Source: Streptomyces sp. NL15-2K
Lineage (GTDB): Bacteria; Actinomycetota; Actinomycetes; Streptomycetales; Streptomycetaceae
Assembly: GCF_030551255.1 (NCBI RefSeq)
Contig: NZ_CP130630.1
Location: 434,001 to 498,000 of the forward strand
DNA: 64,000 nt
Reading direction: 5' to 3'
Shown: in pieces, positions 25,370 through 63,576 of the stretch
How positions within the stretch are numbered: position 1 is the stretch's first letter
How the letters are laid out: each line of letters begins with the position of its first letter
The notes under the pieces: model-generated
Told to the model about the DNA's origin: nothing
The model's input: only the letters and a program-made list of their open reading frames with translations
The model's database searches: none
Made by a program: the position numbers and the translations under genes

Positions 25370-26205
25370 TAGAGTTGAGTGCCTGGTCCGCGGAGTTGAA
25401 CACGGCCAGGCCAATTCCGTCGATGACGGTGTAGGTGAACAGCGCCGGGACGGACTGGAACACGGCGAGGATCAGCAGACCGCCGGCGACGACGATCGCG
25501 TCGCCCATGACCAGGATCTTCCGACGCCCCAGACGGTCGGATATGGGCCCCGGAAATCGACCCGAAGAGCAGGCCGAGCACGAGGTTGATCAGCGCGGTG
25601 ATGCTGATGATGCCTCCGGCGTCGGCCTTCGGAAGGCCGATGAAGTCGGTCAGGATGTAGAGCTGGAAGGCCGAGACGGAGTACGCGGCGATGACGAACA
25701 GGAACTTCCCGGCACCGGCGAGGTAGAAGTCGCGTGCTCCCCTGGTGGGGAAGCTGAAACTTGCGAGCAGTGTTCGGGCGTCGAGCGGCGAGCGTTGTAG
25801 GTCGGTGCTGGGGCGGTCCGGTGCCAGCAGCGCCATCACTGTCCCGGAGATGAGCACGACCACGGCGAACATGAAGAAGCCGACCGAGGGTCTGGAGACG
25901 AAGGCCCCGGCGGTTGCGGTGCCGACCCCGGCGCCCGCCATCAGCGAGACGCCGTAAACGGCCGAGTACGAGCCCTGGTGAGCGGTAGGCACCCGATCGG
26001 GCACCACGGCGATGAGCCCGGCGGTGATCGCGTTGACGAAGAACTGGAAGAAGAGCCATCCGGCGATCAGTATGGGGATGTTCGCTGCGAACCCGCAGAT
26101 CAGCAGCCCCACACTGCATCCGGCGGAGCCCAGCAGCATCGAGGGTGTCCGGCGTCCGAGACGGCCACGTGTCCGGTGTGAGAGGGCGCCGAAGACGAGG
26201 TTCAT
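25370..26205 (-). pseudogene. MFS sugar/glycoside transporter, truncated and frameshifted
   Basis: The remnant begins inside the loop after TM2 with FGALSHRTRGRLGRRTPSML, so the first membrane helices are gone at the IS110 junction. Helices follow through LIAGWLFFQFFVNAITAGLI, SYSAVYGVSLMAGAGVGTA and FYLAGAGKFLFVIAAYSVSA. The frame is lost at about 25550 and regained as MGDAIVVAGGLLILAVFQS and YTVIDGIGLAVFNSADQALN, stopping abruptly near 25372. It has the same architecture as the intact carrier at 36082-37452 (LSDRTRSRLGRRRPW, FSAVDQALYLD), so it is the broken equivalent in the decayed cluster. Confidence 0.8.
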
Positions 26206-26900
26206 CGGCAGGGACAGGTATCTTCCAGGCCCTGGAGCGGGCGTTCGACTACTCCGCGGCCAAGGCCCCGGTCGTCATACTGACCGAGCATCAGACCTCG
26301 GCAGTCATCCGCCGGATCGGCGTCAAGCGGCTGACCGCCTGGCTGGAACGCCGCAAGGTCTGCGGCGCCGCCGACGTCGCGACCGGGGCCGTCGAGGCCG
26401 CCCGGACCGCCGCCCTGTCTCGGGAGGCCCGGGCCCAGAAGCTGGTACTCGACCCGGCCCACCTGCCCCTGGCGCTGGATGAACGGATCAAGGACAACGA
26501 CCGAGAGATCCGCGACAGCCTCCGCACGGATGACCGAGCCGAGATCATCGAGTCGGTGCTCGGCATGGGCCCCATTCTGGGCGCCGAGTTCGTCACCATC
26601 GTCGGCGATCTGTCCGGCTACCGTGATGCCGGCTGCCTGGCCTCGCACGCGGTTTTGGCCCCCGTGCCCCGCGACTCCGGTCGCTCCACCGGCAACCATC
26701 ACCGGCCTGAACGCTGTAACCACCGTCTGCGCCGGCTCTTCTACAGGTCCGCGCAGTACTACCTCAAGAAGCGAGCCGACGGGATGATCCGCACCCAGGC
26801 GATCCTCTCGCTCGCCCGTCGCCGCGCGAACGTGCTCTGGGCAATGCTGCGTGACAAGAGGCGGTTCACCTCCGCCCCGCCAGCCACGCAGGCGGGTTGA
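26206..26900 (+). mobile_element. IS110-family transposase, C-terminal part
   Basis: The fragment carries the IS110 C-terminal (transposase_20) domain: ESVLGMGPILGAEFVTIVGD, LAPVPRDSGRSTGNHH, and RLRRLFYRSAQ followed by YYLKKRADGMIRTQAILSLA and NVLWAMLRDKR. About a dozen codons are deleted after FYRSAQ. The N-terminal DEDD RuvC-like domain is lost, with the break at the MFS remnant. The element is dead. From 26901 to 27029 nothing is recognised. Confidence 0.85.
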
Positions 26901-30499: not shown

Positions 30500-31962
30500 C
30501 CGGCCGCTCCCACACCGGACACAGGCCTGCTGTCCGCGCTGCGCCCCCACGGCGTGGGACACTTGTCACTCGCTTGGTTCCTGGGACACGACGCCGAGAG
30601 CCTGCGCAGGGCGCTCGCTGACATCCAGGACGCGGTCCGGCAGGCATCGCCCTTCGGTATCGGAGCCCTGGTTCACAACGAGGGCATCAACGGGTTCCTG
30701 CACGCGTCCGGCTCCCAGTTCCCGACGGCATGGGGACAGGCTGCCACCTGGGATACCGAGCTGATCCAGCGCGCCTCCGCGGTGACCTCCGCGCACATGC
30801 GACACGCGGGAATGCATCTGCTCTTCTCCCCAGTCATGGACATCAACCGCGATCCGCGCTGGGGCCGCGTACACGAGACCTACGGCGAGGACCCAGAACT
30901 GGTTGCCCAGGTCTCCGTCGCGTTCGTCCGCGGTGTCCAAGGCGCCGACCGGGACCCGGGTGTGCTGGCGGTGGGCAAGCACTTCCTGGGCTACGGTGCC
31001 TCCGAGGGCGGCCTCAACACTGTGATCACTCAGTTGGGCCGGCGCGCCATGACCGATGAGTACGAGCCGTTCCGCCGCTCCCTCACCGAGGCTGGGCTCT
31101 GCGCGGTGATGAACTCCTACAGCGAGATCGACGGCATTCCGGCGAGCGCGAACCGCTGGCTGCTGACCGAGTTCCTGCGCAACACGCTCGGCTTCGAGGG
31201 CCTGGTCGTCAGCGACTACGACGCAGTGAACCTGCTGCGCACCGCCTACCGCACTGCTGACCATCAAGGCCCGGCTCGGCCTCATCCCCGCGTTCACCGC
31301 GCCCCGAGCGGCCACGCGGTCGGCGCTCCCCGACCGTGAAGAGGCCGTCCGTGTCCGGCAGGCGATCGCGGAAGCGGGCTGTGGTCCTGCTCGACAACGA
31401 CGGCACTCTGCCGCTTACCCCGGGCGAGCGCAGGATTCTGGTGGTCGGTCCCGCCGCGGACGACCTGCGCATCCACTTCGGCACCTACACGTCCGTCGCC
31501 CTCGGTGAGATGCCTTTGGGCATGCGAGCGGTGATGGAGGGCCGGGTCCCCGGCGTGGACCCGAAGACGTTCGTGTTTACCGACATCTTCCAGACCCGCA
31601 TCCCCGCCTTCGAGGGGATCTTCGAGGCCGAGGCCCGGAAGATCCACCCGGATGCCCTGACCGTACTCGAGGCCCTGCGCCAGATCGATGCAAGGGTCGA
31701 CTTCTCATCGCTGGCCGGTTCACCTCGGACCCCGAGGCATCCCCGCCTCTCGACGCCGCGGCAGTGCGCACTGCAGCTGAGGGTGCCGATGTCGTCATCG
31801 CTGTAGTCGGTGAGCGCACCGGCTGGGTGGGCACCAACACGGCCGGAGAAAGCCAGTCCACCGCTTCACCCTCACTACCCGGAGACCAGGAGGAACTCCT
31901 CGCGCTCCTGGCCACCACCAGCACACCCCGGGGACCCGACGAAATGCGGCTCGTGGAGTGAC
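30500..31962 (+). pseudogene. GH3 beta-glycosidase, decayed
   Basis: The 5' end is missing. From about 30520 the GH3 barrel runs well: LSALRPHGVGHLSLAWFLGH, ALVHNEGINGFLHASGSQFP, RDPRWGRVHETYGEDPELVA, VLAVGKHFLGYG, and the nucleophile Asp in LVVSDYDAVNLLR. At about 31255 a deletion removes the end of the barrel, and the frame changes to IKARLGLIPAFT and again near 31370 to AVVLLDNDGTLPLTPGERRI, the start of the second domain. A further change near 31720 gives GADVVIAVVGERTGWVG, and the gene ends at 31962 without the Fn3-like domain. It has at least three frame lesions plus truncation. Relatives: 54579-57002 and 61096-63495. Confidence 0.85.
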
Positions 31963-32680: not shown

Positions 32681-35317
32681 TCACAGCTTCCGCCGGTCCG
32701 CGAACCGGCCTTCCCCGGCGGTGACCTCCTCGCCGCCGGGGAAGACGACGGTCGCCCTCGACCCGGGCGGCACGTCGAGGGTGATCAGCAGCTCCTCACC
32801 CTCGACGTACCACTCGACCGCGATGAGCCCCTGCGGACCGTCGAACGTCCCGCGTGCCCACGTGATCGAGGCGTGGGGCACCGGCGCGACGACGAACGAC
32901 TCCCACGCCACCGAGCCCTCGGCCTGCCGCAGGCCGAGGGTGTGGGTGTGCAGGAACCGGACGACCGCGCCCTTGCTGTAGTGGTTGAGCGACGCGTGCG
33001 CGGTGCCGTCGGCGTCGACGCCGTCCCAGTCTTCCCAGATCGTCGTCGCGCCGCGGTCGAGCATGCCGAGCCACGACGGGTAGGTGCGCTGGAACAGCAC
33101 CTCGTAGGCGACGCCGGCGTGGCCGTGGTCGGCGAGCACGGGCAGCAGGTCGGCCGTCGACAGGAGGCCGGTGCCCAGGTGCGTGCCCGCTTCCCGGACC
33201 AGTTCGACCAGCCGCGCCGCGGACGCCGTGCGCAGGTCGCCGGGCACGAGTCCGAAGTGGAGCGCGCGGACGTAGCTCGCCTGCGTGTCGGCGGCGGTGC
33301 GCCCGCTGTCGTCGAGGAATTCGGTGCGCCACGCGTCCTTCACCCGGTCCGCCAGTTCCGTGTAGCGGGCCGCGTCCTCGGTTCGGCCGAGGACTTGCGC
33401 GGTCGCGGCCAGCGTGGCCGTCGACCGGGCCAGGTAGGCCGTCCCTACCTCCCCCTTGTCGGCGGTGAACCAGCCGGCCGGGTCGGCCTGCACCGGGTCG
33501 ATGAGCGAGCCGTCCTCCGCGCGCGCCTTCGGCTCGATCCATTCACCCCAGTGGAATGAGCCGTCCCAGAGGAATTCCTCGTGGGGCAACGGCTCGGCCG
33601 ACCGCTCCACCCGCGACGGGTGCCGCGAAGTCCGTGCCGTCGCCAGTGCCCATTCGACCCAGCGGACCATGGCGTCCCAGTTCTCGGCCAATGCCTCGCG
33701 GTCGCCATACGTCTCGTACAGCAGCCACGGCACGAGCGCGATGGCGTCGCCCCAGCCGGACGAGCCCGTCATCATCGCGAACAGGACGTCGGGGTGCTCC
33801 TTGATGCGGTGCCCGTCCGGGGAGAAGTTCGCGACGCGGCCGTCGGGCAGCTGGTCGTCCCGGACCGAGCGCAGCCACTTGCGCGTGAAACCGGCGACGT
33901 CGTAGAGCCGCACCGCGGTCGGCGCGAAGACCTGGTAATCGCCCGTCCAGCCCAGCCGCTCCCGGTGCGGGCAGTCGGTCGGCACGTCGACGGCGTTGCC
34001 GCGGAAGCTCCAGCCGGCCGCCTCGTGCAGCCGGTTGAGGTCGTCGTCGCCGCAGGCGAAAGTCCCGGTGGGACGCAGGTCCGTGTGCACGACCTGCATG
34101 ACGATGCCCGCCGGGTCGAGCGGCACGCCACCGCGCTCGAGCCGCGCGTACCGGAAGCCGTGCACGGTGTGCCGCGGCTCGAAGACCTCACCCGGCGCGC
34201 CCGAGGAGACCACCTCGTCCCGCTGGACGAACGGGACCGGCGGCTCGCCCGGGCGGGCCGCGTCCAGGTGCGACGTCGTGAGATCGCCCGCAGGGTCGAG
34301 GTGCTCGCCGTAGTCGAGCACGGTCCTGGTGCCCGCCGGGCCGAGGTCGGTAAGGGTGACCCAGCCCGAGGCGTTCTGGCCGAAGTCGGCGATCCAGGCG
34401 CCGGTGGGCAGCTGCGTGACCGACACGGGCGGCCGACGTTCGACGCGCTGCACCGGCGGGGCGGGCGACCAGCCGATCGGCGGGGCGGTGACCGCGTCGA
34501 GGAGCACCGGGCGTTCCGGGCCTCGCGGGGCGAGGAAGTCGGTGGTCTGCCCGGCCATCAGATCGGCGCGGGTGATCCGGCCGGGGCCGCCGGTCCAGTG
34601 CTCGTCGGTGCCGGCGACGCGGGTCGAGCCGTCGGCGAAAGCCAGGTGGAGCTCGAGCCGGGCGCCGAGGCGCGGCCCCCAGTCCGCGGGTTCGCGGAAG
34701 GCGCCGACCTGGCCGCGGAACCAGCCGTCCGACAGGACGATCTCGATCGTGTTCGCCCCGGGCCGCACCGCCGCGGTGACGTCCGACGCCTGCGCGTAGA
34801 GGGTGCGGTCGTAGGAGGTCGAGCCGGGCGTGAGTTCGGCGGTTCCGGCGCGCTCGCCGTTGACGAACGCCTCGTAGACGCCCAGCGCCGTCGCGTAGAG
34901 GCGGGCGCGGGTCACCCCCGCGGGTACGGTGAACGAGCCGCGCAGGATCTGCGCGGGCCGGGCTCCGGGCTCAGTGTCCCCGGCTTCGGCCGGAGAAATC
35001 CACCAGGCGGTCCAGTCCTCGTCGAACAGCCCGGCCTCGAAGGCGTGCCACTCGCTCCACGGCAACGTGCCCGTCCGGACCCGCCAGCGCGCCTGTTCGC
35101 CGCTGCGCAGCGGCCGAACCGGCCACGCGACCCACCGGTGCTCCCGGGTGCGGGCGACTTCCCGCACGCCGTCGCCGATCACGATTTCCACGTCGTAGCC
35201 GGCGCCCGGGGGCACCTCCGCGGGCGGCTTCCACGACAGCCGCGGCCGCGGCCCGGACACCGGGAACCGGTCGCCACCGAAGTCGATCGACAACGCATAA
35301 GGCACTGAGCTGACCAT
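32681..35317 (-). CDS. GH78 alpha-L-rhamnosidase
   Basis: An 878-residue rhamnosidase without a signal peptide. Domain order: an N-terminal Fn3-like sandwich (about 5-100), two beta-sandwich domains with a rhamnose-binding module (LRGSFTVPAGVTRARLYATA, LGVYEAFVNGERAG, VLSDGWFRGQVG), an (alpha/alpha)6 barrel from about 430 with VDVPTDCPHRERLGWTGDYQ holding the acidic active-site residues and WEDWDGVDADGTAHASLNHY further on, and a C-terminal sandwich (ITLDVPPGSRATVVFPGG). It hydrolyses terminal alpha-L-rhamnose from flavonoid, saponin or cell-wall oligosaccharides. It lies 74 bp downstream of the TetR gene on the same strand. Confidence 0.93.
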   Translation of the reverse strand: MVSSVPYALSIDFGGDRFPVSGPRPRLSWKPPAEVPPGAGYDVEIVIGDGVREVARTREHRWVAWPVRPLRSGEQARWRVRTGTLPWSEWHAFEAGLFDEDWTAWWISPAEAGDTEPGARPAQILRGSFTVPAGVTRARLYATALGVYEAFVNGERAGTAELTPGSTSYDRTLYAQASDVTAAVRPGANTIEIVLSDGWFRGQVGAFREPADWGPRLGARLELHLAFADGSTRVAGTDEHWTGGPGRITRADLMAGQTTDFLAPRGPERPVLLDAVTAPPIGWSPAPPVQRVERRPPVSVTQLPTGAWIADFGQNASGWVTLTDLGPAGTRTVLDYGEHLDPAGDLTTSHLDAARPGEPPVPFVQRDEVVSSGAPGEVFEPRHTVHGFRYARLERGGVPLDPAGIVMQVVHTDLRPTGTFACGDDDLNRLHEAAGWSFRGNAVDVPTDCPHRERLGWTGDYQVFAPTAVRLYDVAGFTRKWLRSVRDDQLPDGRVANFSPDGHRIKEHPDVLFAMMTGSSGWGDAIALVPWLLYETYGDREALAENWDAMVRWVEWALATARTSRHPSRVERSAEPLPHEEFLWDGSFHWGEWIEPKARAEDGSLIDPVQADPAGWFTADKGEVGTAYLARSTATLAATAQVLGRTEDAARYTELADRVKDAWRTEFLDDSGRTAADTQASYVRALHFGLVPGDLRTASAARLVELVREAGTHLGTGLLSTADLLPVLADHGHAGVAYEVLFQRTYPSWLGMLDRGATTIWEDWDGVDADGTAHASLNHYSKGAVVRFLHTHTLGLRQAEGSVAWESFVVAPVPHASITWARGTFDGPQGLIAVEWYVEGEELLITLDVPPGSRATVVFPGGEEVTAGEGRFADRRKL

Positions 35318-35391: not shown

Positions 35392-35979
35392 TCAACTGAT
35401 GGTGAAGAAGCGCTCGGCGAAGGCATCCCACACTTCGAGCATGTCCACCGTGGGATCAGCGACCCAAAGCGCCTCCAATCCCGTCCAGAAGGAGTACAGC
35501 TCCCGCGCGGCGAGCATCGGCTTCGGTTTCCAGGACAGCGCCCGCGCGAAACCGTCGAGCGCCCGCTGCTCCCTCTCCAGGAAGTAGCCGTGCGCGGGGT
35601 GGCCGACATCCAGAGCCTCAGCCCGGAGCACGACGTAGAGCCGGACCAACTCACGCTGCTGCTGGTTGTGCTCCACCGAGCTCCGGAACACCTCGTTCAC
35701 CGCGGCAGGGTCGGCGAAATCCTCAACCTCGTGTCGCACGGGGTAGGACAGTTCGTCCCGGTAAGCGAGGACAGCCGCGAGGAGATCGGCCATGGACGGG
35801 AAATGGTGCAGCACCGACGGCTTCCGAATGCCGCACGCGTCCGCGATGTCCGCCAGGGACACCGCGTTGAAGCCGGCAGCAGAGATCAGCCGCGTTGCCT
35901 CCAGGACGATCTGACGGCGCCGCACTTCGGGCGCCAGCCGTCGCTGGGCGCGGGGAGCGCTGTCAGTTGCTGCATTCAT
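35392..35979 (-). CDS. TetR-family regulator of the glycoside cluster
   Basis: A 195-residue regulator. The helix-turn-helix spans IVLEATRLISAAGFNAVSLA, DIADACG and IRKPSVLHHFPSMADLL. The C-terminal domain is helical, with WTGLEALWVADPT near the end. GAGGAG lies 4 nt before the ATG. It heads the TetR-GH78 transcript and faces the MFS-GH2-GH3-GH1 operon across a 102-bp gap with paired CTACC-N4-GGTAG-type operators. This is the classic layout of a ligand-released repressor controlling both sides. The ligand would be the imported glycoside, a sugar released from it, or the aglycone. Confidence 0.9.
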   Translation of the reverse strand: MNAATDSAPRAQRRLAPEVRRRQIVLEATRLISAAGFNAVSLADIADACGIRKPSVLHHFPSMADLLAAVLAYRDELSYPVRHEVEDFADPAAVNEVFRSSVEHNQQQRELVRLYVVLRAEALDVGHPAHGYFLEREQRALDGFARALSWKPKPMLAARELYSFWTGLEALWVADPTVDMLEVWDAFAERFFTIS

Positions 35980-36019
35980 CGATCTCCTCGGGCGGCTTGA
36001 CGACGGTATCCACGCATCC

Positions 36020-36062
36020 TAATCTACCACCCGGTAGGCGCAACCTATCGATCGGTAGATTA
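36020..36062. promoter_or_regulatory. Paired operators between TetR-GH78 and MFS-GH2-GH3-GH1
   Basis: CTACC-ACCC-GGTAG at 36024-36037 and CTATC-GATC-GGTAG at 36045-36058 are two half-related palindromes with centres 21 bp apart, two helical turns. The outer arms TAATCTACC (36020-36028) and GGTAGATTA (36054-36062) form a perfect 9-bp inverted repeat around both. The position in the divergent gap makes them the probable binding sites of the TetR at 35392-35979. Confidence 0.75.
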
Positions 36063-36081
36063 GTCGAACAAGGGAGTTCGC

Positions 36082-37452
36082 ATGACCGAGCGTGAGTCCG
36101 CGGCCACATCCGGCCACCGGAAGGTCGACACAGTTCCCACGCTCGTCAGCGAGGAGGGCGGCGAGGCGGCGATGATTGCGGAGCAGCTCACACATCAGAC
36201 AACCCCGGGCGAGGACCGTCCCCGGGTGAGCGCTGTCTACGTCTGGCTGGTCGTACTGGCGACGTTCGGCTCCATAGTGGCGCTCGTCGGACCGATCGGA
36301 TACTCGCTCTCCGTTCTGCTCGAGCGCATTGCGCCCGAGAACAAGGAGTTCCTCGGCTACGTCACCGGAGTGGGGGCGCTCGTCGTCGTGCTCGCCGGTC
36401 CGCTCGTCGGCATTCTCAGCGACCGCACGCGCAGCCGGCTCGGACGTCGACGTCCCTGGCTCATCGGCCTCACCATGGTCGGCCTTGCCGGACTGCTGAT
36501 CGTTTCCGTCTCCCCGAACGTCTGGATCGCGCTCCTCGGCTGGGGAGTCACGCAACTCGGCTTCGGAATCGCCGGGCTGCAGGTGACGAGCTCGATGGGC
36601 GATCGCCTTCCGGAGTCCCAGCGCGGCAAGGTGGCCGGCTTGACCGGGGTGGCGACGATGGTGGCCTCTATCGCGGGTGTCGGCCTGGCCAGCGCGTTCG
36701 CGACCTCGAACCTCCTGATCTTCCTTTTTCCGGGTCTGGTCGGAGCGACCTTCATCCTCCTGTTCGCTGTCTTCGTCAAAGAGCCCGACCTCCGGAACGC
36801 GGCTGCGCCCGAGAAGGTGACGATGGGTTCGCTGCTCTCCGGTTACGGCTACAACGTGAAGAAGTACAAGGACTTCTCCTGGAACTGGCTCGGACGGTTC
36901 CTGTTCAATTTCGGCGTCACACTCTCCAGCACCTTCACGACGTTCTTCTTCGCCGCCAAGCTCGGCCGTCCCGTCAGTCAGATCGGAGGAATTGTCGCGA
37001 TTGCCGGCCTGCTCGGCATCGTGTTCACCGTGGGAGGCGCGGCGCTCAGCGGATTCCTCTCCGACCGGCTCAAGCGGCGCAAGCCCTTCATCCTTCTCGC
37101 TGGAGTCCTCTTCGCGGTGGGCGCGGTCATCGCTTGGCTCGCTCCGGATCTGCCGGTGCTGCTGATCGGGCTGTGCGTCCTGCAGATCGGCCTCGGCATC
37201 TTCTCCGCCGTCGACCAGGCCCTCTACCTGGACGTGCTCCCCGAGCAGGACACCCAGGCGGGGCGCTTCGTCGCCATCACCCAGTTCTCGACATCCATTC
37301 CACAGGTCGCCGCACCCCTGCTCGCACCCGCTTTCCTCCTCCTCGGAGCCGGCTCCGAGGAGGACAACTACGGCCTCCTGTACCTGATCTCCGCAGGCTT
37401 CGCCCTCATCGGGGGATTGGTGATCCTTCTGCGCGTCAAGAGCGTCCGCTGA
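36082..37452 (+). CDS. MFS transporter for glycosides or sugars
   Basis: A 456-residue carrier with 12 predicted membrane helices after a hydrophilic N-terminus of about 50 residues. It has the motif-A-like loops LVGILSDRTRSRLGRRRPW after TM2 and LSGFLSDRLKRRKPF after TM8, and FSAVDQALYLDVLPEQDTQA late in the protein. The group resembles the glycoside/sugar MFS carriers found beside GH2/GH3 genes and distant GPH-type symporters. It starts the divergent operon after AAGGGAG and is followed 32 bp later by the GH2 gene. It is the obvious entry route for the substrate of the cytoplasmic glycosidases. It could also export the aglycone. Confidence 0.85.
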   Translation: MTERESAATSGHRKVDTVPTLVSEEGGEAAMIAEQLTHQTTPGEDRPRVSAVYVWLVVLATFGSIVALVGPIGYSLSVLLERIAPENKEFLGYVTGVGALVVVLAGPLVGILSDRTRSRLGRRRPWLIGLTMVGLAGLLIVSVSPNVWIALLGWGVTQLGFGIAGLQVTSSMGDRLPESQRGKVAGLTGVATMVASIAGVGLASAFATSNLLIFLFPGLVGATFILLFAVFVKEPDLRNAAAPEKVTMGSLLSGYGYNVKKYKDFSWNWLGRFLFNFGVTLSSTFTTFFFAAKLGRPVSQIGGIVAIAGLLGIVFTVGGAALSGFLSDRLKRRKPFILLAGVLFAVGAVIAWLAPDLPVLLIGLCVLQIGLGIFSAVDQALYLDVLPEQDTQAGRFVAITQFSTSIPQVAAPLLAPAFLLLGAGSEEDNYGLLYLISAGFALIGGLVILLRVKSVR

Positions 37453-37484
37453 GTAGTGGCCACCGCGGCAAATCGAGGAGCAGC

Positions 37485-39950
37485 ATGACAAGAACTTCCT
37501 TCAACCGCGGCTGGCGCGTCCGCCCCAAGGTGAGCCCGTTCGCTCAGCTTCAGGCCGGCGCCGGGGACGCGACATCCGTAACCCTGCCGCACGACGCCGT
37601 CGCCGCCCTTCCCCGGAACGCCGACGCGCCTTCCGGAGGACGGACCGGCTACTTTCCCGGTGGCACGTTCGAGTACCTCAAGGACTTCGAGGTTCCCGAG
37701 CAGTGGCGTGGCAAGCGGGTCACGCTGGAGTTCCAGGGCGTCTACCGCGACGCCATGGTCTATGTGAACGGCACCTTCGCGGCTCAGCGACCCTCCGGCT
37801 ACTCACCGTTCGACGTGCCCCTCGACCCGTTCCTGCGCTACGGGGAATCGAACACCATCCGTGTCGATGCCCGAACCCACGACGACTCCCGGTGGTACAG
37901 CGGCGCGGGCATCTACCGGGATGTGACCCTGCGCGTCACCGACCTCGCCCACCTCGGTGAGGTCCGGATCGCGACGCCTGACATCGACGCCGATCGGGCC
38001 GTCGTGGAGGTGGCGACAAGGGTGGTGAACGAGAGCGTCGAAACCCGGACGCTTCGAGTTCGCACCGAAATCCGCTGTCCTGACGGCGAGGTGGTCACGC
38101 GCGACTCCGCACCCATCACCCTGCGCGCGGGCGGGTCCGGGGTGGTCCGCCAGCGGCTGTACGTACCGAATCCGGCCCTGTGGAGCGTGGACAGCCCGGC
38201 CCTCCACACGGCCCGCACCGTGCTTGAGAACTCGTATGAGCTCCTCGAGGAGGAGACCACGCCTTTCGGGATCCGTCGCCTTCAGCTCGATCCGAGCACC
38301 GGCCTGCGCATCAACGGCGAATCGGTCAAGCTCCGCGGCGCATGCATTCATCACGACAACGGGCCTCTCGGCGCTGCCACCATCGCGCGCGCCGAGGAGC
38401 GTCGGGTCGAGCTTCTGAAGCAGGCCGGTTTCAACGCCCTGCGCAGTTCCCACAACCCGCTGAGCCCCGCAATGCTCGACGCCTGCGATCGCCTCGGCAT
38501 GCTCGTGATGGACGAGACCTTCGACATGTGGGCGGAAGGAAAATCGTCGTTCGACTACTCACTGTCGTTCCCGGAATGGTGGGAGCGGGATGTCGAATCT
38601 CTGGTACGAAAGGATTTCAACCATCCCAGCGTGATCTTCTACTCGATCGGCAACGAGATCTTCGAAACCGGCGACGCGCTCGGTTCCGAATGGGGACGCG
38701 CACTCGCCGAGAAGATCCGCACCCTCGATCCGACACGCTTCGTGACGAACGGCATCAACCCGTTCGTCTCGGTGCTCAGCGAGGTGAAAGAGATGCGCGC
38801 CCGCTCCGCCGAAGTGCAGCCCGACGGGGAGGGCGGCGTGAACGCCATGATGAACGCAGGCGATTTCATGGCGAGAGTCAGCGCCTCGCCGATGGTCAGC
38901 GAAAAGACGGAAGCCTCCTTCTCGGTTCTCGACGTGGCCGGCCTGAACTACGGGGACGGACGCTACGAGTCCGATCGCGAGCAGTTCCCCCACCGGATCA
39001 TCGTCGGCACCGAAACCTTCCCGCCGCGGATCGCGCACAACTGGCGCCTCGTGCTGGACAACGCCCACGTGCTGGGTGACTTCACCTGGACCGGCTGGGA
39101 CTACCTCGGCGAAGCCGGCGTCGGCCGGCTCCAGTACGCGGATGTGAGCCCGGTCTTCGAGGCGCCCTACCCGTGGATCTCCGCGCGGGTGGGCGACCTG
39201 GACATCACCGGCCTGCGCAGGCCCATCTCCTACTACCGGGAGATCGTGTTCGGCCTCCGAACCCAGCCCTACCTCGCCGTTCAACGCCCCGAGGTATACG
39301 GGCGTGAGGGCTTCGGCATGTGGGCGTGGAGCGATTCCATCGCCAGCTGGAGCTGGGACGTGCCGATCGGCACCCCGATCGCCGTGGAGGTGTACACCGC
39401 CGCTGACGAAGTCGAGTTGCTGCTCAACGGCCGCTCTCTGGGGCGGGCGACGCCAGGAGAGTCCAAGCCCTTCCTGGCCGAGTTCGATCTCGCCTACGAG
39501 CCCGGGGAACTGGTGGCCGTCGGTTACCGCGACGGCGTAGAACAGGGACGCACGTCGCTCCGCTCGGCCACCGGCCCGACTCGGCTCGTCGCCGTCGCCG
39601 ACCGGACAGAACTGCACGCGGACGACTCCGACCTCAGCTTCATCACCATCGAACTCCGCGACGAGCAGGGCAACCCGGCGAGCGCACACGATCAGCTGGT
39701 GCACGTGACGGTCGAGGGCGCGGCCGTCCTGCAGGCCCTCGGCAGTGCCCGCCCGGACTCGGAGGAACGTTTCGACGCAGCGCAGTGCACCACGTTCGAC
39801 GGCCGGGCTCTGGCGATCGTCCGGCCGAGAGGTGCCGGGGAGGTCACGGTGACCGTCACTGCGGAAGGCCTAGAACCGGTCGTCGTCGAGCTGGAGTCGC
39901 GGGAACCCGACGACGAGCCCGTCACCGCCGCGCTCCTGGCCCTGCGATGA
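37485..39950 (+). CDS. GH2 beta-glycosidase (beta-galactosidase/glucuronidase type)
   Basis: An 821-residue GH2 enzyme without a signal peptide. Domains: jelly-roll (about 5-160, YFPGGTFEYLKDFEVPEQWR, DDSRWYSGAGIYRDV), Ig-like (about 165-265), TIM barrel (about 270-560) with RLQLDPSTGLRINGESVKLR, ACIHHDNGPLGAA, the acid/base Glu in VIFYSIGNEIFETG and the likely nucleophile Glu in IVGTETFPPR. After TWTGWDYLGEAGVG come DUF4982-like and invasin-like sandwiches (EVYTAADEVELLLNGRSLGR, FITIELRDEQGNPA). GAGGAG lies 4 nt before the ATG. Second gene of the MFS operon. Released sugar could be galactose, glucuronic acid or arabinopyranose; the sequence does not decide. Confidence 0.92.
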   Translation: MTRTSFNRGWRVRPKVSPFAQLQAGAGDATSVTLPHDAVAALPRNADAPSGGRTGYFPGGTFEYLKDFEVPEQWRGKRVTLEFQGVYRDAMVYVNGTFAAQRPSGYSPFDVPLDPFLRYGESNTIRVDARTHDDSRWYSGAGIYRDVTLRVTDLAHLGEVRIATPDIDADRAVVEVATRVVNESVETRTLRVRTEIRCPDGEVVTRDSAPITLRAGGSGVVRQRLYVPNPALWSVDSPALHTARTVLENSYELLEEETTPFGIRRLQLDPSTGLRINGESVKLRGACIHHDNGPLGAATIARAEERRVELLKQAGFNALRSSHNPLSPAMLDACDRLGMLVMDETFDMWAEGKSSFDYSLSFPEWWERDVESLVRKDFNHPSVIFYSIGNEIFETGDALGSEWGRALAEKIRTLDPTRFVTNGINPFVSVLSEVKEMRARSAEVQPDGEGGVNAMMNAGDFMARVSASPMVSEKTEASFSVLDVAGLNYGDGRYESDREQFPHRIIVGTETFPPRIAHNWRLVLDNAHVLGDFTWTGWDYLGEAGVGRLQYADVSPVFEAPYPWISARVGDLDITGLRRPISYYREIVFGLRTQPYLAVQRPEVYGREGFGMWAWSDSIASWSWDVPIGTPIAVEVYTAADEVELLLNGRSLGRATPGESKPFLAEFDLAYEPGELVAVGYRDGVEQGRTSLRSATGPTRLVAVADRTELHADDSDLSFITIELRDEQGNPASAHDQLVHVTVEGAAVLQALGSARPDSEERFDAAQCTTFDGRALAIVRPRGAGEVTVTVTAEGLEPVVVELESREPDDEPVTAALLALR

Positions 39951-40020
39951 AGACCACCCGGCGTACCCCTTCCACCACCATCCTCAGCGGGGCGAACCCC
40001 GCTGAACCCGAAGGAGACCG

Positions 40021-42342
40021 ATGACCGACGTGGCCGCGGAAAGCGTCACCGATCCGGCCGCCGTCCGGGCGGGCGACCTCCCGTACCAGAACCCGGCCCT
40101 GCCCCTGGAACAGCGCGTCGACGACCTGCTCTCCCGACTCACACTCGAGGAGAAGGCAGGCCAGCTCACCCAGTTCTTCTACCTGGACATGGAGGAACTG
40201 CCCGAGGACTTCGACCTGGAGACGCTCCGGCCTGAGCAACGGGCGTATGTCGGACAGCCCAAGATGGTCGAAGCCGCGATCGCCGCCGGCACCACGGGCT
40301 CTGTGCTGTTCGTCAAAGACCCCGCGAAGACGAACCGCCTGCAGCGCCTCGCCGTCGAGACCACCCGCCTCGGCATCCCTCTGCTGTTCGGCTTCGACGT
40401 GATCCACGGCCTGCGGACCATCTTCCCGGTGCCGATCGCACTCGCCGCGACCTGGTCGCCTGCCACGATCGAAACCGCACAAGCCGTGGCCGCCCGCGAA
40501 GCCCGTGCCGTCGGTATCGCCTGGACGTTCGCGCCGACGGTCGATATCGCCCGCGACCCACGGTGGGGGCGGATCATCGAGGGACCGGGTGAGGACCCCG
40601 TGCTCGGTGCCGCCGTCGCGGCGGCCCAGGTCCAAGGTTTCCAGGGGAACCTGGACGCCGAGCACGTGCTCGCGGGCCCCAAGCACTTCGCCGGGTACGG
40701 AGCCGCTCGCGGCGGCCGCGACTACGACGACGCGGAAGTGTCGGATTCCGAGCTGTGGAACGTGTACCTGCCGCCCTTCCAAGCGGCGATCGAAGCCGGG
40801 GCCGGCACTGTGATGAGCGCCTACATGGACCTCAACGGCGTGCCGGCGTCCGCGAATCGCCGCCTGCTCTCCGACATGCTCCGCGACGAGCTCGGCTTCG
40901 AGGGATTCGTGGTCTCGGACGCCAACGCCGTCCGATCCCTGGAGACCCAGCACTTCGCGGAAGACCTCACGGATGCAGCGGTGCGAGCTGTCTCGGCCGG
41001 GCTCGACATGGAGATGTGCATGTTCGACCCCGCCTTCTCGCGACTCCCGCAGGCAGTCACCGACGGTGTGATCGGTGAAGAGGTTATCGACGACGCAGTG
41101 CGGCGGGTCCTGACGGCCAAGTTCCGGCTCGGTCTCTTCGAGAACCCCTACGTGCTCGAGGATGCCGCGGCCTCCGTCCTGGGTGCCCTCGAACACCGTG
41201 AACTCGCCCGCACCACCGCAGAGCGCTCGATCATCCTGTTGAAGAACGAGCCCGCCGTGCTTCCGCTTCGCGCCGACGCTCTGAAAACGGTCGCCGTGAT
41301 CGGGGAACTGGCCGACAGCAAGCGAGACACCCTCGGCCCGTGGGTGTTCGAGCACGACACCGACGAGACCGTAACCGTTCTGGAAGGCCTGCGGAACCGT
41401 CTCGGTGACCGCGTCCAGGTGACGCACGCGCCGGGAGCGGGCAGCCCGAGCCGGCGCTTCCCCTCCATGTTCGATCGGATGGACCCCACAGTGGTGGAGA
41501 CCTCCCTGGACAACGACGACGACGAGATCACCCGTGCGGTGGAGCTGGCGGCCTCCGCCGACGTGGCGATCGTGGTCGTCGGGCAACGACAGAACCAGAT
41601 CGGCGAGAACGCCTCGACCGCCACCCTGGACCTGCCGGGGCGGCAGCTGGAGCAGCTCCAGCGGATCAGCCGGACCGGCACTCCCGTCGTGCTGGTCGTC
41701 ATGTCGGGCCGCCCCCTTGATCTGCGCTGGGCGGACGCCCACGTGCCCGCCATCGTGCAAGCCTGGTACCCGGGGACACGCGGCGGTGAAGCGGTGGCAT
41801 CCGTCCTGCTGGGCGAGGTCTCGCCCGCCGGGCGCCTCCCTTTCAGCTGGCCGCGCCACGTCGGACAGGTGCCCATCATCTACTCGCACAACCGGACTTT
41901 CCAGCCCGAGAACCAGGGTGCGCGCTACTTCGAAGAGGAAAGCGTGCCGCTCTACCCCTTCGGTCACGGACTCTCCTACGCCGATTTCGAGTACTCGAAC
42001 CTGAGACTGGACCGGCCCGAGATCCAGGTCGGAGAAACCGTCACCGTGTCCGTCGACGTTCACAACCGCTCCGGCGTCGACGCCGACGAGGTCGTGCAGC
42101 TCTACACGCATCAGCGTTACGGCACGGCCTCCCGTCCCATCCGGGAGCTCAAGGGGTTCCAGCGGGTCCCCCTCGCGGCCGGCGAGATCCGCACGGTCAC
42201 CTTCGGTCTCGGCCCGGACATGCTGCGCTACTGGGCCGCGGCCACGGGCCGGTTCGTCCAGGACGCCACGACCATCGACATCTACGTCGGCGGAAGCTCC
42301 ACCGCCGAGCTGACGACCACGCTTGAGGTGGCGAAACGATGA
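40021..42342 (+). CDS. GH3 beta-glucosidase-type enzyme (BglX-like)
   Basis: A 773-residue GH3 enzyme starting YQNPALPLEQRVDDLLSRLT after a short hydrophilic lead, without a signal peptide. The barrel domain has LLFGFDVIHGLRTIFPVPIA, RDPRWGRIIEGPGEDPVLGA and the nucleophile Asp in GFVVSDANAVRSL. The alpha/beta sandwich has ERSIILLKNEPAVLPL and GRLPFSWPRHVGQVPI. The C-terminal Fn3-like domain has VDVHNRSGVDADEVVQLYT. It resembles periplasmic BglX in architecture but lacks an export signal. AAGGAG precedes the ATG; its TGA overlaps the ATG of the GH1 gene by 4 bp, so the two are translationally coupled. Confidence 0.93.
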   Translation: MTDVAAESVTDPAAVRAGDLPYQNPALPLEQRVDDLLSRLTLEEKAGQLTQFFYLDMEELPEDFDLETLRPEQRAYVGQPKMVEAAIAAGTTGSVLFVKDPAKTNRLQRLAVETTRLGIPLLFGFDVIHGLRTIFPVPIALAATWSPATIETAQAVAAREARAVGIAWTFAPTVDIARDPRWGRIIEGPGEDPVLGAAVAAAQVQGFQGNLDAEHVLAGPKHFAGYGAARGGRDYDDAEVSDSELWNVYLPPFQAAIEAGAGTVMSAYMDLNGVPASANRRLLSDMLRDELGFEGFVVSDANAVRSLETQHFAEDLTDAAVRAVSAGLDMEMCMFDPAFSRLPQAVTDGVIGEEVIDDAVRRVLTAKFRLGLFENPYVLEDAAASVLGALEHRELARTTAERSIILLKNEPAVLPLRADALKTVAVIGELADSKRDTLGPWVFEHDTDETVTVLEGLRNRLGDRVQVTHAPGAGSPSRRFPSMFDRMDPTVVETSLDNDDDEITRAVELAASADVAIVVVGQRQNQIGENASTATLDLPGRQLEQLQRISRTGTPVVLVVMSGRPLDLRWADAHVPAIVQAWYPGTRGGEAVASVLLGEVSPAGRLPFSWPRHVGQVPIIYSHNRTFQPENQGARYFEEESVPLYPFGHGLSYADFEYSNLRLDRPEIQVGETVTVSVDVHNRSGVDADEVVQLYTHQRYGTASRPIRELKGFQRVPLAAGEIRTVTFGLGPDMLRYWAAATGRFVQDATTIDIYVGGSSTAELTTTLEVAKR

Positions 42343-43583
42343 ACGAGAACACGATGAGTGCCTTTCCCGCCAGGTTCCTCTGGGGCGCTTCCACCGCACC
42401 TCACCAGATTGAGGGCAACAACATCAACAGCGACTGGTGGGCCCGCGAGAGCCTGATGCCCGGGATGGAACCGAGCGGCGATGCGCTGGACAGCTACCAC
42501 CGCTATCGGGAGGACATGGAACTGCTGGCGGACGCCGGCTGCACCGCGTACCGATTCGGCATCGAGTGGGCCCGCATCGAGCCGCGGCCGGGGCAGATCT
42601 CGCGCGCCGAGCTGGCCCACTACCGGCGCATGATCGACACAGCACTCGAACTCGGACTCGAGCCGGTGATCACCCTGCAACACTTCACGTCGCCACGCTG
42701 GTTCGCGGAGGAAGGCGGCTGGCTGGGAGAAAACGCAGTCGCCCGGTTCGCATCATTCGTGACCAGTGCCACCCAGATCCTCGATGGCGTGCAGTGGGTA
42801 GCCACCATGAACGAACCCAACATGCAGGCGATGATGGTGATGCTGCAGGAAGCCATGCGCTCCGGGCAGCTCGCCGAATGGCAGAGTCCCACCGTCGACG
42901 GCGAGGCGCAGCGGGAACGGATCGCCGCGAATCTGCCGGTGCCCGAACCGAGATTCGGACACCGCATGGTCGAACTCCACCACGCCGTCCGCGACATCGT
43001 GCGCGAACGGACAGGAGCCAAGGTGGGATGGACGATCGCCAACGGCGCGCTCACCGCAACACCGGGCAACGAAGAGAAATTCGCTGAAGTGCGATACGCG
43101 TACGAAGACCTCTACCTCGAAGGATCACGCGGCGACGACTGGATCGGGGTCCAGTCCTATTCCAGCCAGCAGGTGGACGCGAACGGACTCGTCCCCCACC
43201 CTGAGCGCCCCGACAACACGCAGACCGGGGCGGCGTACCGACCGGACGCTCTCGGCATGGCCGTCCGCCACGCGTGGGAGGTGGCCGGCCTACCCATCCT
43301 CGTCACCGAGAACGGGATCGCAACAAGCGACGACGACCGCAGAATCGCCTACACGACCGACGCGCTGCGGGGACTGTCCGCGGCGATCGCGGACGGTGCA
43401 GACGTCCGTGGCTACCTGCACTGGAGCCTGCTCGACAACTACGAGTGGGGCCACTGGGAACCGACGTTCGGGCTGGCCGCCGTCGACAGGGAGACCTTCG
43501 AGCGCAAAGCGAAGCCGAGCCTGGCATGGCTCGGTAGCGTCGCCCGCACGAACGGCGCGGCTGTCACCGAATCCCTTTCCTGA
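42339..43583 (+). CDS. GH1 beta-glucosidase
   Basis: A 414-residue GH1 enzyme, slightly shorter than the usual 440-480. FLWGASTAPHQIEGNNINSD is the N-terminal signature; YRFGIEWARIEP follows. The acid/base Glu is in VATMNEPNMQ, and the nucleophile Glu is in ILVTENGIATSDDD, with GYLHWSLLDNYEWGHW after it. It is cytoplasmic, removes terminal beta-glucose, galactose or related residues from glycosides, and is the last gene of the MFS-GH2-GH3-GH1 operon. The internal ATG at 42354 (MSAFPARFLWG) could also be used. Its only relative in the window is the N-terminal scrap at 27805. Confidence 0.95.
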   Translation: MNENTMSAFPARFLWGASTAPHQIEGNNINSDWWARESLMPGMEPSGDALDSYHRYREDMELLADAGCTAYRFGIEWARIEPRPGQISRAELAHYRRMIDTALELGLEPVITLQHFTSPRWFAEEGGWLGENAVARFASFVTSATQILDGVQWVATMNEPNMQAMMVMLQEAMRSGQLAEWQSPTVDGEAQRERIAANLPVPEPRFGHRMVELHHAVRDIVRERTGAKVGWTIANGALTATPGNEEKFAEVRYAYEDLYLEGSRGDDWIGVQSYSSQQVDANGLVPHPERPDNTQTGAAYRPDALGMAVRHAWEVAGLPILVTENGIATSDDDRRIAYTTDALRGLSAAIADGADVRGYLHWSLLDNYEWGHWEPTFGLAAVDRETFERKAKPSLAWLGSVARTNGAAVTESLS

Positions 43584-43699: not shown

Positions 43700-45068
43700 C
43701 TACTTGGTGAAGCCAAGGCCGCCACGGCGCAACGATGTCGTAGTCATCTCGACACTTCGCCCGGAGCCCTGGCGCTGGTCGTGTCGCCGACTCACCTTGT
43801 CGACCAGGAGCTTCTGATCGATGTCGTGCAGGGCCAGCAGTCGCACCCAGGCGTCGAGATCGGCGGCGATGTTCGCAGCGAGCATCCAGCCGCGGTTGAC
43901 CTCCCACGATTGCGAGGGCAGGTTGTCCAGCCCCATCGCTTTGTTGGTGCGTACCCGGTCTTCCACACCGGCGTGGGAGCGGTGCAGCACGTCCAGGAAC
44001 TGGGCGTGGCCCGAGCCGGTGATTCCCCACATGTGACAGATGTTGGTCGCGGTGATGCAGTAGCGCCAGCCGGTCTGCTTCTCGAACGCGGTCAGCTTCT
44101 TCAGGTGCCGCCGGGCCGGACGCACCGGGCGCACGATCAGCCGCATGCCCTCGGGCCAGCCTTGGCGGGTGTTCAGGCCGGTCAACTCGGCGACGAAGTA
44201 GCCCTCCTGGAGGGTGCCGTCCTGGTGTACGGAGGTCTCCCAAGCGGTCTCGGGCAGCCGGGCGATGGCTTTCTCGTCGTCTTCGGTGATCTTCCAGCCG
44301 ACGGTGTAACGGACCGTGCGCCGGGTGGTGTTCAACGCTTCCAGGTGTTCGAGTAGCCCGTGGGTGGCTCCCGCCCCGTCCACCCCCACCAGGATCTTTG
44401 CGGTCGACGACCCGGGGATCTGGGCGAGGGCGTGGGTGAGACCGTGATGTGGTCGGCCACCGTGTTCGCTCCAGAGTTCCCCGGTCGCAGGAGCATGGCC
44501 AGGGACTCGGTGGTGTTGGTCGCACCACGCGGCCAGCGGATGAAACCCGAACGTCTTCTTGAAGGTGACCGCCGCCCCCGTCTTCTTCGAGGCCGAGGTG
44601 ATGATGGTGGCGTCGAGGTCGATGACGATCCAGCCGGTCAGCCGCTTGCCGGCCACCGTCAGCCAGGGGAAGCCGCCCGGCCGCAGATGCAGCAGGCCCC
44701 ACACGTGCCGGCGCACCCTCGCCCGCACCTTGACGATCTTCGCCAGGGGGGCCTCGTCGAGCGCGGCAAGAGTGCGGCGGGCGGTCGAGTCCGATGCCTC
44801 GGGCCCGAACAGCGGCCGATGGTGTAGCTGAAACTGCTTGGCCTCCGACGGGTTCGCCGGCCCCGAGCACGATCGCGACCGCCAGGTGCACCAGCACCCC
44901 TGCCCGGTCCCGCCAGCCGGCCACGGTGCTGGACGGCAGCACCTTCGCCAGCGCCCCCGTCAGCCCCGTCCGGTCCGCGCATCGGCGCAGCAGCACCGCC
45001 CCGGCATGACCGATCAGCCTCTTCGCGTCAGCCACGACCGACAGCCGACGGTCCCACCCCTCGACCAC
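43700..45068 (-). mobile_element. IS1380-family transposase, frameshifted
   Basis: The N-terminal part from 45068 reads RLSVVADAKRLIGHAGAVLL, LAVAIVLGA. The frame is lost at about 44860 and resumes as NPSEAKQFQLHHRPLFGPEA, DSTARRTLAALDEAPLAKIV, RARVRRHVWGLLHLRPGGFP, WIVIDLDATIITSASKKTGA (catalytic Asp), KILVGVDGAGATHGLLEHLE (second Asp) and MWGITGSGHAQFLDVLHRSH, to LVDKVSRRHDQRQGSG. The usual C-terminal end is shortened, stopping at 43700. Nearly whole but one frameshift makes it inactive. Confidence 0.85.
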
Positions 45069-45676: not shown

Positions 45677-45913
45677 CCCCTTTTGACCTTGCTCCAGGTG
45701 GGGTTTACCGAGCTGCCCAGGTCACCCTGGGCACTGGTGGTCTTTTACACCACCGTTTCACCCTTACCCAGCGCCTGAACGCTGGGCGGTCTGTTTTCTG
45801 TGGCACTGTCCCGCAGGTCACCCCGGGTGGCCGTCAGCCACCACCCTGCCTTGTGGAGTCCGGATGTTCCTCGGCAGGACCAGGAGTCCTGACGCGGCCG
45901 TCCACTCGGCTCG
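45677..45913 (-). ncRNA. rnpB: RNase P RNA gene, 5' half only
   Basis: Read on the minus strand from 45913, the sequence follows actinobacterial class A RNase P RNA. It begins CGAGCCGAGTGGACGGCCGC, then has CGAGGAACATCCGGACTCC (conserved region I), GGCAGGGTGGTGGCTGACGG, GACAGTGCCACAGAAAACAG, GGTAAGGGTGAAACGGTGG with TGTAAAAGACCACCAG (regions II-III), and GGTAAACCCCACCTGGAGCA, ending near AAGGTCAAAAGGGGA. The 3' half, with the AGATGGATGGCCG region (IV) and the ACAGAACCCGG region (V) that pairs back to the 5' end, is not found on either strand of 45137-45676. It is a truncated, slightly diverged copy and should not fold into a working ribozyme. A GATCT/AGATC palindrome at 45638-45656 lies just past the break. 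Confidence 0.8.
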
Positions 45914-59527: not shown

Positions 59528-59544
59528 GGTGGCCTCTCTGTCTG

Positions 59545-63495: not shown

Positions 63496-63516
63496 AGGCG
63501 GGCAACTCCTGTTGTG

Positions 63517-63532
63517 TTGCGAACGCTTTGGC
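63517..63532. promoter_or_regulatory. LacI-type operator candidate upstream of GH3
   Basis: TTGCGAACGCTTTGGC (CAAAGCGTTCGCAA on the coding strand) has the central CG and A/T-flanked half-sites of LacI/GalR-family operators. It lies 22-37 bp upstream of the GH3 ATG at 63495, in the promoter or leader. No LacI gene is in the window. Symmetry is imperfect, so this is tentative. Confidence 0.45.
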
Positions 63533-63576
63533 ACGGCCCATCGCTCGGGTGGTGCGTGTGCGACTGCTCCGGTGCA

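Follow-up and report, generated by a model that had tools for sequence, protein, structure and literature searches.

A TetR-MFS-glycosidase locus of Streptomyces sp. NL15-2K as a candidate pathway for import and intracellular deglycosylation of rhamnosylated plant glycosides

What use would a streptomycete have for an alpha-L-rhamnosidase and three different beta-glycosidases that are encoded beside a TetR-family regulator and a major facilitator superfamily (MFS) carrier? The question is raised by a six-gene locus of Streptomyces sp. NL15-2K, which lies within a stretch of 64,000 nucleotides (the window; C1:434001-498000 of a 12.4-Mb genome in three contigs). A sequence-only reading of the window had proposed that an intact, rhamnosylated multi-sugar plant glycoside enters through the carrier and is stripped stepwise inside the cell. 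This proposal gains support from the related enzymes RhaA, GluA and GalA (PMC9597252), from a GluA-like glycoside hydrolase (GH) of family 3 in the locus, and from the recurrence of the carrier in related loci. We put at about 60% the probability that we are dealing with a variant, under TetR control, of actinobacterial loci for MFS import and intracellular deglycosylation of rhamnosylated plant glycosides. The most useful new point is the repeated presence of related MFS genes and of regulators next to such enzymes.

The stripping of toxic plant glycosides by bacteria has effects on root communities, on insect pests and on the detoxification of food, and the glycosidases involved have been characterised in a few strains (PMC9597252; PMC10653915). 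In Glutamicibacter halophytocola S2, RhaA (GH78), GluA (GH3) and GalA (GH2) convert alpha-solanine and alpha-chaconine to solanidine, solatriose being a branched chain of rhamnose, glucose and galactose (PMC9597252). The suggestion that the Streptomyces locus may be an undescribed kind of system is thus overtaken by a cluster of the same kind already on record. The main text of PMC9597252 does not deal with the entry of these large amphipathic glycosides into the cell or with their sensing.

Gene content and control region

Gene families were assigned by Pfam, with scores read against the Pfam cut-offs. On the minus strand lie tetR (35392-35979, 195 amino acids (aa); PF00440, 2.4e-13) and, 74 bp downstream of it on the same strand, the gene of a GH78 alpha-L-rhamnosidase (32681-35317, 878 aa; PF17389, 2.4e-97). 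Divergent from tetR, the plus strand encodes an MFS transporter (36082-37452, 456 aa; PF07690, 5.7e-30, and PF13347, 1.7e-11), a beta-galactosidase-type GH2 (37485-39950, 821 aa; PF02836/PF02837/PF18565), a beta-glucosidase-type GH3 (40021-42342, 773 aa; PF00933, 1.6e-68) and a GH1 beta-glycosidase (42339-43583, 414 aa; PF00232, 1.6e-56). Pfam agrees for all six proteins with the families and strands of the sequence-only reading, and the spacings it had given, 32 bp between the MFS and GH2 genes, 70 bp between those of GH2 and GH3 and a 4-bp overlap of GH3 with GH1, are exact. The interval that it had assigned to the locus, 35392-43583, holds five of the genes but leaves out the GH78 named in its title. 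The genome has six places with a GH78 above the Pfam cut-off and six GH1 genes (11 pieces, merged by us); given this scarcity, the gathering of GH78, GH1, GH2 and GH3 within 11 kb is more than chance.

The regulator scores 50.1 bits against the TetR_N domain (cut-off, 24). By sequence comparison, the gap between tetR and the MFS gene contains two operator-like 14-bp near-palindromes, CTACCACCCGGTAG (36024-36037) and CTATCGATCGGTAG (36045-36058), spaced 21 bp from centre to centre, which bears out the earlier statement that paired operators lie there. A promoter-like site, TTGACG-N17-TAATCT (35997-36025, plus strand), putatively serves the MFS operon, and its final two bases overlap the first palindrome. 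Both palindromes are identical in Streptomyces flaveus. In Agromyces albus, a member of another order than Streptomyces, the second is again CTATCGATCGGTAG and the first is CTACCGCGCGGTAG, alike in 12 of 14 bases with both differences central; the register is that of the window, and the hexamers and the spacer length of the promoter-like site are kept, while five of the seven bases between the palindromes differ (counted by eye). The TetR itself is 97% identical in S. flaveus and 71% in A. albus. On these comparisons, the regulator is a TetR-family protein with conserved tandem palindromes at what appears to be its own divergent promoter.

When up to three mismatches were allowed, the tandem pattern was found at one place in the Streptomyces genome, with 0 mismatches (2 on the other strand there). 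The same pattern read backwards, used as a control, gave three places, so that lone matches with three mismatches are meaningless. Among 299 Microbacteriaceae genomes, the tandem pair occurs in one, that of A. albus. This single occurrence in the own genome and in 1 of 299 genomes makes the TetR look like a local switch, and a wider regulon was set aside on the same grounds. The solved relatives of the TetR were likewise set aside as a guide to its ligand, the matches being weak (best, 8.6e-9) and mostly to the N-terminal DNA-binding half.

Enzymes, carrier and related loci

Of 295 genomes from the family to which Arthrobacter ruber belongs, seven matched the window GH2 at E <=1e-150. Because one of these genomes (G415) carries all six published primers for RhaA, GluA and GalA with 0 mismatches, it was taken to hold the published solanine/chaconine cluster. 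Its gene order is MFS, LacI (on the opposite strand), RhaA, GluA, GalA and a short-chain dehydrogenase/reductase (SDR). The MFS and LacI genes beside RhaA-GluA-GalA seem to be unreported in PMC9597252, in the main text of which the words transporter, MFS and regulator are absent.

The window GH3 is 70% identical to GluA (38% for the next best GH3 of the GluA genome), and GluA in turn finds the window GH3 as its best match in the stretches of the own genome that were compared, at 69% against 34% for the next; the two proteins are likely orthologues. The GH3 contains an SDA motif, presumably holding its nucleophile, and the GH1 and GH2 keep NEP/TENG and GNE/GTE motifs, respectively, which we take to be the expected catalytic ones. 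The GH2 is 57% identical to GalA. The GH78 shares 69-70% identity with its counterparts in six Streptomyces loci, one of them the second copy of the own genome, and on sequence it belongs in this Streptomyces clade and not in that of RhaA. Its G+C content at third codon positions, 0.936, stands against 0.821-0.863 in the other five genes, the other called open reading frames (ORFs) of the window spanning 0.76-0.94. At 1e-30 the GH1 finds no match in two Glutamicibacter-type genomes, G415 and its near relative G508, and its closest solved relatives by sequence are SGR_2426 and BGL167 (PDB 8kap, 9u98, 4r27). As the sequence-only reading had it, the enzymes appear to lack signal peptides: in a heuristic check of the first 60 residues, none of the four showed a twin arginine, a lipobox or a strongly hydrophobic segment.

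The transporter is a member of the major facilitator superfamily, with 104.8 bits for MFS_1 (cut-off, 33.4). Its AlphaFold model (mean pLDDT 83.3, pTM 0.81) contains 12 long predicted helices and an N-terminus predicted with low confidence. The protein is 18 aa shorter than that of S. flaveus (456 vs 474 aa), the gap lying near the N-terminus (36082-36200).

Related loci were gathered by MFS similarity, the 80 described here being the best among the matches listed, and were compared with the six proteins by tblastn; types of enzyme and regulator were called by bit-score thresholds of our choosing. In 43 of these loci the start of the MFS ORF is no more than 400 bp from the match and the identity is at least 42%, two of the other 37 (L046 and L052) being placed there by the start rule only. 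An ORF of GH1, GH2, GH3 or GH78 with at least 80 bits lies within 10 kb in all 43 loci as against 27 of the 37 others, and a GH78 over the thresholds in 25 of 43 as against 3 of 37. GalA-type GH2 is present in 21 of the 43, the GH1 type of the window in 15 and GluA-type GH3 in seven. Of the 43, 21 have a Glutamicibacter-like LacI, at 45% identity or more in 17 and at 36-38% in four; a TetR scoring at least 60 bits against that of the window accompanies the carrier in four, in a count that covers this kind of TetR only. In 74 of the 80 loci (six were dropped, most with short flanks), 114 GH ORFs lie within 5 kb of the MFS gene and 28 farther away. One of the survey loci (L033), from Microbacterium azadirachtae, carries LacI, MFS, RhaA, GluA and GalA at 65-77% identity to the Glutamicibacter cluster, and is probably, on sequence, a glycoalkaloid-type locus.

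The full combination is much narrower. MFS, GH2, GluA-type GH3, GH1 and GH78 occur together in four of the 80 best loci (L009, L010, L026 and L039), and a TetR of at least 70% identity in two of the 80, those of S. flaveus (L009) and A. albus (L010). The co-occurrence of TetR-MFS-GH2-GH3-GH1 that the sequence-only reading had proposed to look for is thus found in both: all six genes are present in S. flaveus at 92-99% identity, and in A. albus the five-gene core is collinear at 69-82%. A TetR match at E <=1e-40 is present in 2 of 343 Streptomyces genomes (the own genome, and one at 46%) and in 2 of 299 Microbacteriaceae genomes (A. albus at 71%, and one at 40%).

In the MFS tree (54 rows of at least 280 bits, 23 of them unlabelled, with labels set by us), 20 loci whose LacI is at least 45% identical to the Glutamicibacter protein fall into a first group (support 87/80, not starred); a further locus with a 52% LacI (L075) is outside the tree since its MFS score was too low. 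Eight beta-glucuronidase loci form a second group (100/100), and the TetR core of three loci, which includes the window MFS, a third (100/100). By path, the nearest rows to the TetR core are L011 and L012 (57-59%), which stand beside GH2 and RhaA-type GH78, L012 also with a LacI at 36%; by branching, the nearest is L018, on a long branch and with GH3 only. Against a clean split of enzymes by group stand L051, inside the LacI group without RhaA-type GH78, and six rows that have RhaA-type GH78 outside it (L010, L011, L012, L021, L035 and L044).

The same TetR-MFS-GH2-GH3-GH1 core is joined to two different GH78 clades, one in Streptomyces and the other in Agromyces, and this suggests, on sequence, that the core needs a rhamnosidase. 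The simplest reading would be the joining of five genes of foreign origin to a rhamnosidase that was already resident, in which case removal of rhamnose would be part of the job. A broader proposal, which we hold only tentatively and would sooner bet against than for, is that an MFS group spread over nine Actinomycetes families is dedicated to the import of whole saponin-like glycosides, with sub-clades tied to their own regulator and enzyme sets (LacI with RhaA; TetR with GH2-GH3-GH1; TetR with beta-glucuronidase, GH1 and GH78) and rhamnosidases exchanged among them; the present locus would then combine a horizontally acquired, Agromyces-type core with a resident rhamnosidase. If this is true, it would provide the steps of uptake and sensing that are missing from the bacterial detoxification of glycoalkaloids and saponins. 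Related pathways could also be traced through the MFS group.

Proposed mechanism and alternative explanations

Since steroidal glycosides are the substrates of the relatives, and since the four enzymes fit a branched chain of rhamnose, glucose and galactose, the first choice of substrate is a saponin or glycoalkaloid; by this analogy it would most likely be a steroidal or triterpenoid saponin or a glycoalkaloid. Without substrate, the TetR would sit on both palindromes over the divergent promoters and keep tetR-GH78 and MFS-GH2-GH3-GH1 off. The glycoside or its aglycone may release the regulator, upon which the carrier would import the intact glycoside, GH78 would take off the outer rhamnose, and GH3, GH1 and GH2 would take off glucose and galactose. 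The sugars could then be used, and a less toxic aglycone would be left in the cell or expelled.

Several observations weigh against import and deglycosylation of such glycosides. The exact TetR locus is rare, the set of components is not, and GH3s close to that of the window are common, as the best 120 of 7997 matches all have at least 67% identity. The GH78 is only 34% identical to RhaA and is not of the RhaA type, and the GH78 nearest to RhaA among the own-genome stretches compared (50%) belongs to the neighbouring LacI/ABC set described below. In the GH2 tree (31 rows of at least 400 bits, the window duplicate L130 dropped), the window GH2 stands beside and not inside the starred GalA clade, and the window MFS lies outside the Glutamicibacter group of the MFS tree; a glycoalkaloid substrate is therefore not simply transferable to this locus. 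The Glutamicibacter MFS scores 353 bits (44%) with the second MFS locus of the own genome and 334 bits (48%) with the window MFS. None of the six proteins exceeds the cut-off of any NCBIfam model, which leaves the enzymes without a curated exact function, and no gene for aglycone breakdown is seen among the six.

The locus may instead use free plant or microbial oligosaccharides, such as rhamnogalacturonan, arabinogalactan or glycan side chains, with no aglycone and with a TetR that senses sugar. GH78, GH2, GH3 and GH1 all have members that act on polysaccharide fragments, and the window also contains GH43, GH35/42-like and GH46 genes. Moreover, 11 kb away a second set of overlapping enzyme families runs on the minus strand, with GH3 (54579-57002), GH2 (within 57074-60685), GH3 (61096-63534) and GH78 (from 63577), its divergent LacI, family-5 solute-binding protein, ATP-binding cassette (ABC) permease and ABC ATPase lying just outside the window (L130, L131). 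The GH2 of this set is 57% identical to the first GH2 of the window and 52% to GalA. Frame 52822-56103 also encodes an apiosidase-like/DUF5060/DUF5605 protein. The presence of the LacI/ABC set makes it less likely, we infer, that the MFS locus is a second route for the same free oligosaccharides, and could equally favour oligosaccharide use in the region. TetR ligands are mostly hydrophobic or amphipathic and those of LacI proteins mostly sugars, which speaks against a sugar-sensing TetR; the lack of a secreted depolymerase among the six genes also speaks against this alternative. The relatives RhaA, GluA and GalA work on steroidal glycoalkaloids (PMC9597252), and on balance use of free oligosaccharides is unlikely.

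The other alternatives concern the carrier and the class of glycoside. TetR-MFS pairs are typically drug exporters, and the MFS could expel a toxic aglycone or an antibiotic while the glycosides of the enzymes enter by another route; its best NCBIfam score, 39.9 bits, is indeed for a multidrug-resistance superfamily model, below the cut-off of 131. Foldseek and VIA-align rank NorA, SotB, MdfA and VMAT together with sialin, SLC45A4 (human, in one of the two lists), STP6 and AmpG, and as importers and exporters match alike, the fold was set aside as a guide to the direction of transport, a further point that does not help the case for import; no MelB or plant SUC structure is among the 50 matches listed in either search. 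What makes an exporter quite improbable is that this MFS family stands beside a Glutamicibacter-like LacI in nearly half of the 43 loci, and that the protein exceeds the cut-off of the PF13347 sugar-transport model and matches GPH and sucrose-symporter NCBIfam models, if below their cut-offs (35.8 bits against a curated 231.35 for the GPH symporter model TIGR00792, so that membership there is not indicated). With import retained, the substrate could be a flavonoid rutinoside or neohesperidoside and not a saponin, as a GH78 and a beta-glucosidase suffice for rutin or naringin. A sugar chain that is longer and branched is, however, suggested by the presence of three beta-glycosidases, one of them the galactosidase-type GH2, and the characterised relatives are enzymes of steroidal glycosides; a flavonoid substrate is, on these grounds, most improbable.

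Surroundings of the locus and comparison with known systems

Transposase genes flank the locus on both sides, an IS110-type at 26145-26900 and a DDE_Tnp_1_4 at 43700-44728, the latter presumably of the IS1380 type. The DDE_Tnp_1_4 gene, a partial profile match (137-380 of 435), starts 117 bp past GH1 in a stretch that is shorter in S. flaveus. At 30554-31806 there is a partial GH3 N-terminal domain (profile 46-266 of 316) and, in another frame, the start of a GH3 C-terminal domain (25.9 bits; cut-off, 31). This is probably a broken gene, and S. flaveus has different DNA there, with an SDR and the remnant of a GH3 C-domain. A match to RNase P class A RNA on the minus strand (45692-45894) covers model positions 20-222 of 367 only.

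The own genome holds a second MFS locus at C1:12151000-12163000 (L110, L128), with TetR, broken GH3 pieces, GH78 (70%), MFS (42%), two SDRs, a beta-glucuronidase (856 bits; cut-off, 544) and GH1 (70%). Six other Streptomyces, from seven with an MFS above 500 bits, were fetched, and five of them combine GH1, beta-glucuronidase, MFS, GH78 and TetR; the sixth (G225) has TetR, MFS and GH3 instead. These beta-glucuronidase loci share with the window MFS (42-45%), GH78 (69-70%), GH1 (58-70%) and TetR (34-36%). Unlike the window locus, they have a beta-glucuronidase as their GH2 (870 and 856 bits in the two tested, cut-off 544; 87-90% alike across six Streptomyces loci), lack both a GalA-type enzyme and an intact GluA-type GH3, and fall in a separate MFS clade. 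A chain of rhamnose, hexose and glucuronic acid would fit a soyasaponin-like glycoside.

With TetR and MFS as its neighbours, the window locus is not of the streptomycete LacI/ABC sugar-use type. Likeness of the GH1 to SGR_2426, a beta-1,2-glucosidase of Streptomyces griseus, and to BGL167 of Microbacterium raised beta-1,2-glucan as a substrate. In SGR_2426, Q229 and W291 act at subsite +1, and its gene is accompanied by ABC transporter genes (PMC12369401). In our reading of the alignment, these specificity residues are replaced by Gly and Ala in the window GH1; with both lost and a transporter that is not ABC, beta-1,2-glucan use was ruled out.

Hennessy et al. are said to have described, in 2020, a 'trisaccharide utilization' cluster in Arthrobacter sp. 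S41. GH clusters of rhamnosidase, glucosidase and galactosidase are present in Arthrobacter S39 and S41 (PMC6473145). The RhaA-GluA-GalA locus of Glutamicibacter shares with the window a run of GH78, GH3 and GH2 near an MFS gene (GH3 70%, GH2 57%, MFS 49%). It has a LacI between MFS and RhaA where the window locus has a TetR; RhaA stands in place of a GH78 that belongs to another clade and lies behind tetR, an SDR is present, a GH1 of the window type is absent, and the MFS and GH2 fall in separate clades. A plain glycoalkaloid cluster was ruled out on the GH78 clade, the regulator and the MFS group, and by these sequence comparisons the window locus is akin to the glycoalkaloid locus but of a different type. 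Among the literature matches listed, no title or abstract describes a TetR-MFS-GH locus of this kind.

We know of no experimental work on the locus of A. albus DSM 15934. Its GH78 is unlike that of the window, being RhaA-like (65% to RhaA) and placed downstream of GH1 on the same strand. In the order of TetR divergent from MFS-GH2-GH3-GH1, in its matching tandem operators and in the promoter spacing, it is like the locus of Streptomyces sp. NL15-2K.

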